A stretch of 51,080 bases of DNA from the IMG/VR virus record IMGVR_UViG_3300028844_002676, positions 1 through 51,080 of that record; one strand, written 5' to 3'. This DNA comes from a virus. Position numbers and translations under genes: made by a program. Under the pieces are notes generated by a model, which worked only from the letters and a program-made list of their open reading frames with translations, did no database searches and was not told the DNA's origin. Shown here in pieces: positions 29,314 through 31,061 of this stretch (position 1 is its first letter; every line of letters starts with the position of its first letter).

Positions 29314-29517
29314 ATGCCACAACGTAAACGACATCTAGCCAAAGCAGTGACATGGCGTATAGTAGGTTCTATTGCTACTGCCTTGATTGCATGGGCCTTT
29401 GGATTACCACCTAAGGTGATTGGTTTTGTGTTTGTGGTTGACCTTGTAGTTAAATTTGTGTTATACTATGCACATGAAAGAGCATGGTACAAATACATCA
29501 AATATGGAGTTAAGTAA
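29314..29517 (+). CDS. DUF2061 small membrane protein
   Basis: 67 residues with two predicted membrane helices. The sequence KRHLAKAVTWRIVGSIATAL, then a helix to VVDLVVKFVLYYAHERAWYK, matches the DUF2061 pattern (RHL.KA.TWR..g....f.....lg......i...e...K...YY.HER.W). These proteins are found next to sulfate and sulfur genes in bacteria and in phages; biochemical role unknown. Spacing is eight bases from the previous gene, and its stop overlaps the next start (TAATG). Inner-membrane location is expected. Confidence 0.8.
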   Translation: MPQRKRHLAKAVTWRIVGSIATALIAWAFGLPPKVIGFVFVVDLVVKFVLYYAHERAWYKYIKYGVK

Positions 29518-29945
29518 TGGCGTTTGATTGGAAAAGACCCACAACAGAAATGTTGGGCAGATGGCAACCCTGGCATGATGGACACACTGCATTGTTCAAA
29601 AGAGCATACGCAGAAACAGGACAAGTTGCTATAATGATCAGAGATGTTGGCGGTATTATGGGCAAGGATGCAGGAGGTGGACGTACAGACCAAGTACAAG
29701 ATGACAATCCATTTGAAGCAGATGCAGTTAAAAATAATATTATCGAAGGACTGGCCAAAGCAGACTTTCATATTGATGAAGATTACATTATCATGATTGT
29801 ACCAAATATTGTAGACATATCATATGGACGTGGAGTAGGATACTCATTCACAGAACATGATTTAGGTGATACAGTTACAGACATATCAGCAACCAAAATC
29901 AGAGCGAAACTACGTGAAGAAGGTAAACTACCTCCCAAAGAGTAA
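29517..29945 (+). CDS. Cytidylyltransferase-like nucleotidyltransferase
   Basis: 142 residues. The H-x-G-H signature is in GRWQPWHDGHTALFKRA (residues 14-30) and the second motif is DISATKIRAKLREEG near the C-terminus (family S-x-T-x-I-R). This is the minimal catalytic domain of the cytidylyltransferase and NMN-adenylyltransferase superfamily, moving a nucleotide onto a small phosphorylated substrate. In a phage with many glycan genes, making an activated sugar or alcohol (or NAD-related salvage) is plausible. A TAATG overlap joins it to the DUF2061 gene, and a three-base gap to the cupin gene. Substrate not predictable. Confidence 0.78.
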   Translation: MAFDWKRPTTEMLGRWQPWHDGHTALFKRAYAETGQVAIMIRDVGGIMGKDAGGGRTDQVQDDNPFEADAVKNNIIEGLAKADFHIDEDYIIMIVPNIVDISYGRGVGYSFTEHDLGDTVTDISATKIRAKLREEGKLPPKE

Positions 29946-29948
29946 CAC

Positions 29949-30275
29949 GTGAAAATACAAATCAATGACATTGGTGGTACTATTGCCAAACAAGATGATA
30001 GGTACATAGTCAAAGACAACACCACTTTAAAAAATTTAGTAGTAAGTTCTACAGATTTAAAACCACGCAAAAGCACATCTGGACACAAGCACAGAGGCCA
30101 AGAAGAAATTTATTTTTTTGTTAAAGGCAACGGCACCATGGAAATAGATGACAACAAGTTCAAAGTTAGCAAAGGAGATACTGTGTTGATTGAGGACGGA
30201 GCATTCCATAGAGTGTATGCAGGCAACAAAGGTTGTTACTTTGTTTGTGTGTTTGATGGTAAAAGAAAAAAGTGA
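29949..30275 (+). CDS. Cupin-domain protein
   Basis: 108 residues, GTG start. Single cupin: GHKHRGQEEIYFFVKGNGTMEID carries the H-x-H...E...G motif 1 with metal ligands, and GDTVLIEDGAFHRVYAGNKG carries motif 2 with its His. Small cupins of this type act as sugar-nucleotide isomerases, mannose-6-phosphate-like enzymes or dioxygenases. The link to the neighbouring nucleotidyltransferase suggests sugar-nucleotide metabolism. The end overlaps the next GTG start (GTGA). A late box is not visible for this block, so it is probably transcribed through from 29119. Confidence 0.8.
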   Translation: MKIQINDIGGTIAKQDDRYIVKDNTTLKNLVVSSTDLKPRKSTSGHKHRGQEEIYFFVKGNGTMEIDDNKFKVSKGDTVLIEDGAFHRVYAGNKGCYFVCVFDGKRKK

Positions 30276-30517
30276 AAATACGTTTCTATAAAAATTTAAC
30301 TGAATTAAGATGGATTGGTTTTGCATTGGCCATGGTATCTGCTTTTTTACTGTCAGGCGGAAATCCTAACATACAATGGATAGGCTGGGGCATTGCATGT
30401 TTCTCATGTTCCATATGGTTATACATGGGTTACAAAGATGGAGACATACCCAGAGCACTTATGGAATTGATGTATCTGCTTCTAGCAATTAGAGGCGTGA
30501 TCATGTGGATGGAATGA
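30272..30517 (+). CDS. Small membrane protein
   Basis: 81 residues with a GTG start overlapping the cupin stop. Three hydrophobic segments are visible: WIGFALAMVSAFLLSGG, WIGWGIACFSCSIWLYMGY and LMELMYLLLAIRGVIMWM. No charged or catalytic residues stand out inside. The type is common in marine phages, with a weak resemblance to PQ-loop or transporter fragments, too short to say more. It ends with TGA overlapping the Smr-like gene. Inner-membrane protein of unknown role. Confidence 0.55.
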   Translation: MKIRFYKNLTELRWIGFALAMVSAFLLSGGNPNIQWIGWGIACFSCSIWLYMGYKDGDIPRALMELMYLLLAIRGVIMWME

Positions 30518-30723
30518 AACTGGACTTACATGGTATCAGACATCATGCAGTTGATCGACTGGTAGAAAACTTTATATTGCTTAACCAAGAACACACACCA
30601 TTGACCATTATGTGTGGTAACTCACAAACCATGATTGACCTAGTGTATGCAGTGATTAACAGAATCAAATGCGAACAGGTAATTATGGACAGATACGGTA
30701 TAATCATAATCAGTAAATTGTGA
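30514..30723 (+). CDS. Smr-domain-like protein
   Basis: 69 residues starting at the ATG of an ATGA overlap; a start three codons earlier is also possible. It begins KLDLHGIRHHAVDRLVENF and continues with TIMCGNSQTMIDLVYAV, the LDLHG...A and G.G/G.S blocks of small MutS-related (Smr) domains, which bind or nick branched DNA or stalled mRNA-ribosome complexes. Only the core is present, and the usual GKG is GNS. The gene ends directly at the late box that drives the riboswitch transcript. Function in the phage unknown. Confidence 0.62.
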   Translation: MKLDLHGIRHHAVDRLVENFILLNQEHTPLTIMCGNSQTMIDLVYAVINRIKCEQVIMDRYGIIIISKL

Positions 30724-30729
30724 TAAATA
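30722..30729 (+). promoter_or_regulatory. T4-type late promoter box of the riboswitch transcript
   Basis: GATAAATA. With normal late spacing the transcript would begin near 30735, directly at the 5' edge of the first glutamine aptamer. Confidence 0.6.
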
Positions 30730-30733
30730 CTTG

Positions 30734-30788
30734 TACGTTCATCCCGCAGGGACGGAAGTAAGATTAAGTTATATCTGAAGGAACGCAT
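30734..30788 (+). ncRNA. Glutamine riboswitch-like aptamer 1 (glnA / Downstream-peptide type)
   Basis: The outer stem CGTTC (30736-30740) pairs with GAACG (30781-30785). Inside lie a CCC/GGG hairpin, the conserved GACGGAAGTA strand, a second small AGAT/ATCT stem, and GAAGGAACGC at the 3' side. This is the consensus of the glnA and Downstream-peptide RNAs, which bind L-glutamine and are known from cyanobacteria and marine metagenomes. It is the first of two tandem copies, before a short peptide gene. Confidence 0.82.
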
Positions 30789-30792
30789 TGCA

Positions 30793-30846
30793 GACGTTCA
30801 TCTTGAAAGAGACGGAAGTAGGTAATGATACCGAAGGAACGCACCC
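30793..30846 (+). ncRNA. Glutamine riboswitch-like aptamer 2 (tandem copy)
   Basis: The outer stem CGTTC (30795-30799) pairs with GAACG (30837-30841), with a TCTT/AAGA hairpin, GACGGAAGTAGG and a perfect GGTA/TACC stem, then GAAGGAACGC. CACCC at 30842-30846 can pair with GGGTG at 30858-30862, overlapping the Shine-Dalgarno of the downstream peptide, which suggests translational control. Confidence 0.82.
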
Positions 30847-30865
30847 AACTTTACAGGAGGGTGTT

Positions 30866-30967
30866 ATGGATATGAATAGTCACACTTTGTTTCTATACTT
30901 GAAAGCAATCAAGGAAAAGAAACGCAAGGCTAAGATTCAGCAAGTTTTCAAAAATTTTTACAAATAA
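30866..30967 (+). CDS. Short basic peptide downstream of the tandem glutamine riboswitch
   Basis: 33 residues: MDMNSHTLFLYLKAIKEKKR and a further basic helix ending NFYK. The Shine-Dalgarno AGGAGG (30855-30860) is strong and is partly enclosed by a possible CACCC/GGGTG stem with the aptamer's 3' edge. The Downstream-peptide RNA class is named after just such short frames in marine cyanobacteria and one of their phages. The peptide is an amphipathic, Lys-rich helix of a size that could inhibit glutamine synthetase, as known small inhibitory factors do, but that is a guess. A hairpin and promoter-like sequence follow. Confidence 0.62.
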   Translation: MDMNSHTLFLYLKAIKEKKRKAKIQQVFKNFYK

Positions 30968-30982
30968 ACTTGACCGAATACT

Positions 30983-31011
30983 TTGACTTTTTAATGAGAT
31001 GCATGTATATT
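30983..31011 (+). promoter_or_regulatory. Possible sigma70-type promoter upstream of gp32
   Basis: TTGACT, 17 bases, TATATT. It overlaps the left arm of the hairpin at 30997-31028, so the two signals may be alternatives. Confidence 0.4.
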
Positions 31012-31033
31012 AATTTATATGTGCATCTTTTTC
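30997..31033 (+). terminator. Hairpin with T-run after the riboswitch peptide
   Basis: A 13-base-pair stem (including G-U pairs) AGATG... / ...CATCT around a TTAATT loop, followed by TTTTT. It separates the peptide transcript from the gp32 leader. Confidence 0.65.
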
Positions 31034-31053
31034 TACATATATAATAGCAAAGA

Positions 31054-31061
31054 GATAAATA
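31054..31061 (+). promoter_or_regulatory. Late box in the gp32 leader
   Basis: GATAAATA, 79 bases before the gp32 ATG. The leader contains two ATGGCAT copies (31115 and 31141) and an AAGGAG Shine-Dalgarno between them. Confidence 0.5.

Follow-up and report, generated by a model that had tools for sequence, protein, structure and literature searches.

Two glutamine-I aptamers lie in tandem upstream of a short ORF

The window, by which we mean the whole stretch of DNA analyzed (a virus record of 51,080 bases, from a marine T4-like phage), carries genes for a tail sheath protein, TerL, gp32, UvsX, and a helicase. Its TerL is 53% identical to those of Pseudomonas jumbo phages such as PA5oct, and the psbA family was matched by only 2 of 40 related records, most of the records being fragments. 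Upstream of gene 32, two riboswitch aptamers lie in tandem before a short ORF. Directly 5′ of this cassette (29314-30720) are genes for a DUF2061 membrane protein, a protein matching a PHROG "kinase" family, a cupin, and two small unknown proteins. Among the loci fetched, most of these genes are common only to the window and one other contig (L119).

Scanning the entire window with Rfam models gave two matches above cut-off, both to RF01739 (glutamine-I, glnA leader; cut-off 35 bits), both on the + strand, and both spanning the full model. Aptamer 1 occupies 30734-30789 (53.0 bits, E 6.7e-9), with P1 formed by CGTTC at 30736-30740 and GAACG at 30781-30785. Aptamer 2 occupies 30793-30845 (55.3 bits, E 1.5e-9), with P1 strands at 30795-30799 (CGTTC) and 30837-30841 (GAACG) and a conserved C at 30842. 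The conserved core of RF01739 is kept in both, and, as in other members of this class, they sit in a 5′ leader with an expression platform, here an anti-Shine-Dalgarno (anti-SD) helix that covaries across phages.

A first-pass annotation had described two copies of a "glnA/Downstream-peptide" consensus 6 bases apart and proposed a search with the Rfam glutamine models, in which RF01739 matched twice. The glnA part of that description therefore stands, and the Downstream-peptide part does not: RF01704 (glutamine-II), which is also a glutamine sensor before ORFs of 17-100 aa but has a different aptamer, is ruled out in the window at 10.8 bits against a cut-off of 33. The stated spacing was only roughly right: 3 nt separate the Rfam envelopes, and 9 nt the P1 helices.

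Units with the same layout recur in many phages

We surveyed IMG/VR with near-exact consensus patterns, which miss divergent units and bias proportions. The pattern for two adjacent aptamers matched 111 stretches and the single-aptamer pattern at least 119; among the single-aptamer matches listed, about one-sixth were tandem, comprising 17 loci also matched by the two-aptamer pattern and two others. We ran the covariance model on 44 records underlying these loci, including four named phages; every record had a match, and in 42 it exceeded the cut-off. Units of this kind are present in phages whose TerL is 55-66% identical to that of the window. When the window unit was searched against named phages as DNA and as protein, no full match was found; matches to part of an aptamer pointed to Melnitz, S-CREM1, S-SM2, and DSL-LC02.

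Nearly all units are followed by a short basic ORF. We recovered 152 distinct peptides of 13-78 aa (median 49 aa, median pI 10.1), and pN/pS was 0.29 over 186 close pairs, so that most of these ORFs, judged by substitution pattern, are real genes. As the ORF caller takes the first start preceded by an SD and favors short ORFs, coding support rests on selection and family structure. At a few loci the caller chose a GTG inside the SD helix, and the 13- and 26-aa calls, with pN/pS above 1, are probably wrong frames.

The peptides fall into several families. Helical peptides with WCY/WxxYCR motifs occur in the window, L111, L366, L406, Melnitz, and others; the remaining families are MTKYQ..NPFYP, YRG, RKEV..NGxGTSGY, and RDFE..DPRLQ. 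The YRG peptide of L099, the sole YRG member tested, matched DUF4278 at 29.4 bits (cut-off 25.3). The predicted layout is the same in over a hundred other phage contigs, where the short peptides differ, and what had been described as a distinct regulatory circuit of one phage is instead a widespread cassette.

Two of the families are linked by chimeric peptides in L193, L148, L087, and L093, which combine an MTKYQ N terminus, a YRG motif, and an NPFYP C terminus.

A late-type box precedes the first aptamer

A box, GATAAATA, of the T4/cyanophage NATAAATA late promoter type lies on the + strand at 30722-30729, with 6 nt between its end and CGTTC of aptamer 1. The late box claimed at 30722 is thus present at a suitable distance, and transcription would be expected to start at about 30735-30736. 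Late-type boxes are no more frequent in the window than expected by chance; of the 12 NATAAATA boxes on the + strand, 7 stand no more than 70 nt upstream of the start of a + strand ORF (P 1e-5), and the ORFs with such a box include those for sheath and TerL. Both the enrichment and the position of the box before aptamer 1 are as expected for T4-type late promoters, in which the box stands before genes at a fixed spacing from the start.

The other units show the same arrangement. A NNTAAATA box occurred within 40 nt of the first aptamer in 107/150 distinct viral units (71%), compared with 1.8% of random windows. Spacing between box and aptamer was 5-8 nt in 81 units, and a second group, with a small hairpin between the two, had spacings of 21-25 nt. 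Among the units lacking a box are some that immediately follow a two-piece tmRNA and some that come after a hairpin with a T-rich tail.

Just 5′ of aptamer 1, L130, L147, L193, L098, and others carry a small inverted repeat (e.g., GTAACGCAAGTTAC). It is frequent in MTKYQ-type units, where its stem sequence varies and pairing is kept. In some units the repeat also fits an NtcA-like GTA-N8-TAC pattern.

Predicted anti-SD pairing begins at the conserved C next to P1

The SD of the short ORF (AGGAGGG, 30855-30861, + strand) is part of the expression platform at 30842-30863, in which CACCC (30842-30846) pairs with GGGTG (30859-30863) in the MFE fold. The first base of CACCC is the conserved C that immediately follows P1 in aptamer 2. 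The first-pass annotation had noted that these motifs could pair beside the SD as a direct translational switch; both are present and paired in that fold, and at the sequence level an SD-sequestering layout is supported.

This position is a general feature of the units. In 82.6% of 132 distinct viral units, the SD region takes part in a helix of 5 bp or more whose first base is exactly the conserved C after P1. When partners were swapped, the mean was 39% and the maximum 47.7% in 500 trials, in a test that mixes partners across families and takes no account of phylogeny; the units share descent. The helix sequences vary, with CACCC/GGGTG, CACCT/GGGTG, CACTT/GAGTG, CATCT/GGATG, and CAATCTTC/GGAGATTG among them, and cyanobacterial leaders before ORFs for DUF4278 proteins and for proteins like the glutamine synthetase (GS) inactivating factors (IFs) have CGCCTC/GAGGCG at the same position.

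In the solved aptamer structure, ligand binding inserts G23 into P1, where it pairs with C60 as a linchpin (PMC11477058). Deduced from position only, the conserved C after P1 corresponds to C60. Because one base would then be needed both for ligand binding and for hiding the SD, the switch is predicted to be ON with glutamine. Cyanobacterial type 1 and type 2 glutamine switches both activate expression with glutamine (PMC6316151). In an energy model, blocking the conserved C weakened the fold by 2.9 kcal/mol, and blocking C plus A weakened it by 4.0 kcal/mol; with the C blocked, the SD was still mostly paired, and the model is only suggestive of ON switching.

The ORF encodes a peptide of a predicted helical family

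The short ORF (30866-30967, + strand, with a second in-frame ATG at 30872) encodes the small basic peptide of 33 residues that had been proposed, MDMNSHTLFLYLKAIKEKKRKAKIQQVFKNFYK, with a pI of 10.2 and a net charge of +6.6. It is predicted to form one helix (residues 5-32, mean pLDDT 88.5), and it fits a conserved family. Compared with a profile of the WCY peptides, a family that we defined in this analysis from peptides behind phage glutamine aptamers and profiled from its other members, the window peptide scored 15.7 bits (E 1.2e-4 among 193 peptides), a score equaled by none of 5000 shuffles. Among the loci examined, the family occurs only behind such aptamers. Since the only second copy of the window peptide, in L119, is 99.3% identical, selection on it is argued from its family.

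The peptide had no match in Pfam, PHROGs, or NCBIfam, and only weak matches (E 0.02 or worse), to fluorescent proteins, among solved structures. DUF4278 (PF14105) is absent, at the Pfam cut-off, from both the peptide and the rest of the window. We rejected homology to the inactivating factors IF7/IF17, as there was no NCBIfam match (NF052599) and hhalign gave a probability of 1.6% for the window's family; for the MTKYQ family against the IF profile, the probability was 0.1%. We also dropped the idea that DUF4278 is connected with the PII-binding protein PirA, since the PirA paper makes no mention of this domain. As profile comparison found no homology of the phage peptides to cyanobacterial GS inhibitors, an action of the peptide on host nitrogen assimilation is a guess made by analogy only.

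A terminator-like hairpin follows the ORF

Downstream of the ORF is a terminator-like hairpin on the + strand (30996-31034), with a 14-bp stem at 30996-31029, a T-rich tail, and a fold z-score of −3.2; a simple consensus terminator scan did not list it. Similar hairpins lie 3′ of 24% of peptide ORFs, compared with 2% of random windows. A further late-type box, at 31054, precedes gene 32. We read the parts of the cassette as a complete, putatively monocistronic unit. At the gene 32 loci of the nearest relatives of the window (L003-L010), the aptamer is absent upstream, so the cassette is mobile or readily lost.

Related glutamine riboswitches

Tandem glutamine riboswitches are already known (PMC2864571), and PMC9481103 gives 157 doublets; these resemble the window in having two aptamers of the same class in series. 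In its passages on glutamine, the tandem review makes no mention of phages.

A close bacterial counterpart is the cyanobacterial type 1 switch before gifB and DUF4278 genes (RF01739; Klahn et al. 2018, reviewed in PMC6316151), which in cyanobacteria controls small basic inhibitors of GS (PMC6316151). It shares with the window the aptamer class, an SD-sequestering helix that starts at the C after P1 (CGCCTC/GAGGCG, compared with CACCC/GGGTG), and a small basic protein as its target. It differs in that the window's switch is phage-borne, tandem, and behind a late box, and in that no homology connects the window peptide with IFs or DUF4278.

Glutamine riboswitches are also known in a few phages (PMC9004378, PMC9964418). 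In Methylophilales phage Melnitz, an RF01739 aptamer (52.8 bits) precedes an SD hairpin and then a 32-aa ORF whose product belongs to the window's peptide family; unlike the window, Melnitz has a single aptamer directly behind a two-piece tmRNA, without a late box. The riboswitch was published as controlling ssrA, and the 32-aa ORF was not annotated (PMC9004378). The final 39 bases of the predicted tmRNA are shared with the aptamer. Our data suggest that the Melnitz switch serves the peptide ORF rather than the tmRNA. The hairpin (CACTT/GAGTG) and ORF are visible in Melnitz at 1502-1668 of our locus L415 (MZ577097.1), and the order tmRNA, aptamer, peptide also occurs in L335, L337, L359, L368, L378, and L384.

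The glnA element of cyanophage S-CREM1 (PMC9964418) is likewise a phage aptamer before a short ORF with an initial YRG motif. It is divergent, with a long insert, and scored 33.5 bits here, compared with 44.0 bits in PMC9964418, which does not discuss the target peptide. At this S-CREM1 locus (L416, 1510-1785), the ORF after the element starts with MSQATYRGAKYD, and its YRG product resembles those of the DUF4278-type ORFs that follow other aptamers. In the cyanophages S-SM2 (L417, 1510-1740) and DSL-LC02 (L418, 1500-1715), the aptamer halves appear to flank a short ORF, as if it lay in the P3 loop.

A model for the cassette

We think it probable that the locus is a self-contained late cassette, consisting of a late promoter, two glutamine-I aptamers, a translational platform, a 33-aa helical peptide, and a terminator, that is ON with glutamine. 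Transcription by the late RNA polymerase would begin at aptamer 1. When glutamine is scarce, the C conserved immediately after P1 in aptamer 2 would close the CACCC/GGGTG helix and hide the SD. With glutamine bound, this C would be drawn into the aptamer through the G23-C60 linchpin, and the anti-SD helix would lose its closing pair. The weakened helix would open the ribosome site, and the peptide would be made late in infection. The two aptamers in series could make the response steeper or shift it. What the sequences show directly is the anatomy, the RF01739 membership of the aptamers, the covarying platform, and coding selection on the peptides of related units; the late start, the binding of glutamine, and the ON direction are inferred.

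We considered other readings of the locus. It is hardly credible that the aptamers survive only as decayed or non-functional relics of a host leader, with a spurious ORF behind them: the phage copy is known from sequence only, but the core is conserved with high scores in both copies, the platform covaries across phages, the spacing to the late box is narrow, and related ORFs have a pN/pS of 0.29. It is very improbable, if slightly less so, that the switch mainly controls gene 32 and uvsX, with the short ORF a mere leader. Both genes are downstream on the same strand, yet the terminator-like hairpin and the box at 31054 intervene, close relatives of gene 32 (L003-L010) have no upstream aptamer, and in other phages the unit adjoins different genes, with purifying selection acting on its ORF; control of gene 32 is therefore disfavored.

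The direction of switching could also be the reverse, with glutamine stabilizing P1, the adjacent anti-SD helix stacking on it, and the peptide made only at low glutamine. Nested folding allows P1 and the SD hairpin together, with the SD mostly paired when P1 is formed. We nevertheless regard an OFF switch as unlikely, since the cyanobacterial type 1 switches, which share the platform position, activate with glutamine (PMC6316151), and since the base that closes the anti-SD helix should be captured by the linchpin pair. A more specific version of the ON cassette holds that the phage peptides are counterparts of the cyanobacterial GS inactivating factors and inhibit host GS directly. The same aptamer class and platform precede IF-like genes, the peptides are small and basic like the IFs, which bind GS electrostatically (PMC6316151), and some phage units encode the DUF4278 domain, which is the N-terminal part of IF17. 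Against this, hhalign comparisons of IFs with the window's family and with the MTKYQ family were not significant; we hold this version as a tentative one.

For the late cassette that we favor, the proposed switching step rests on a single C used by both the ligand-bound aptamer and the SD helix. Across about two hundred viral contigs, this pairing of a metabolite sensor with a microprotein recurs, mostly behind a late-type box and with several unrelated peptide families. In phages, riboswitches are regarded as rare, with unclear targets. The phage-wide late-box cassette, its platform, and its exchangeable peptide families appear to be new, being undescribed in the mostly open-access literature searched, and so does the likely service of the Melnitz switch to an unannotated 32-aa ORF. 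A link between a small late effector and host nitrogen status is probable in many ocean phages. We speculate, with low confidence, that marine T4-like phages of very different hosts share the late cassette, keeping the switch and exchanging the peptide, and that these peptides, non-homologous to IFs, act on host GS or its regulators when glutamine is plentiful. The peptides form a concrete, testable set of candidates for effects on nitrogen metabolism in abundant ocean bacteria.

Outside phages, the consensus pattern for glutamine-I aptamers matched before GlnII-like glutamine synthetase ORFs of SAR86 and other Gammaproteobacteria (L272, L282, L293) and before an ammonium-transporter-like ORF of SAR116 (L199). 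These marine proteobacterial loci are pattern matches only, and may be compared with a review that calls the glutamine-I switch restricted to cyanobacteria.
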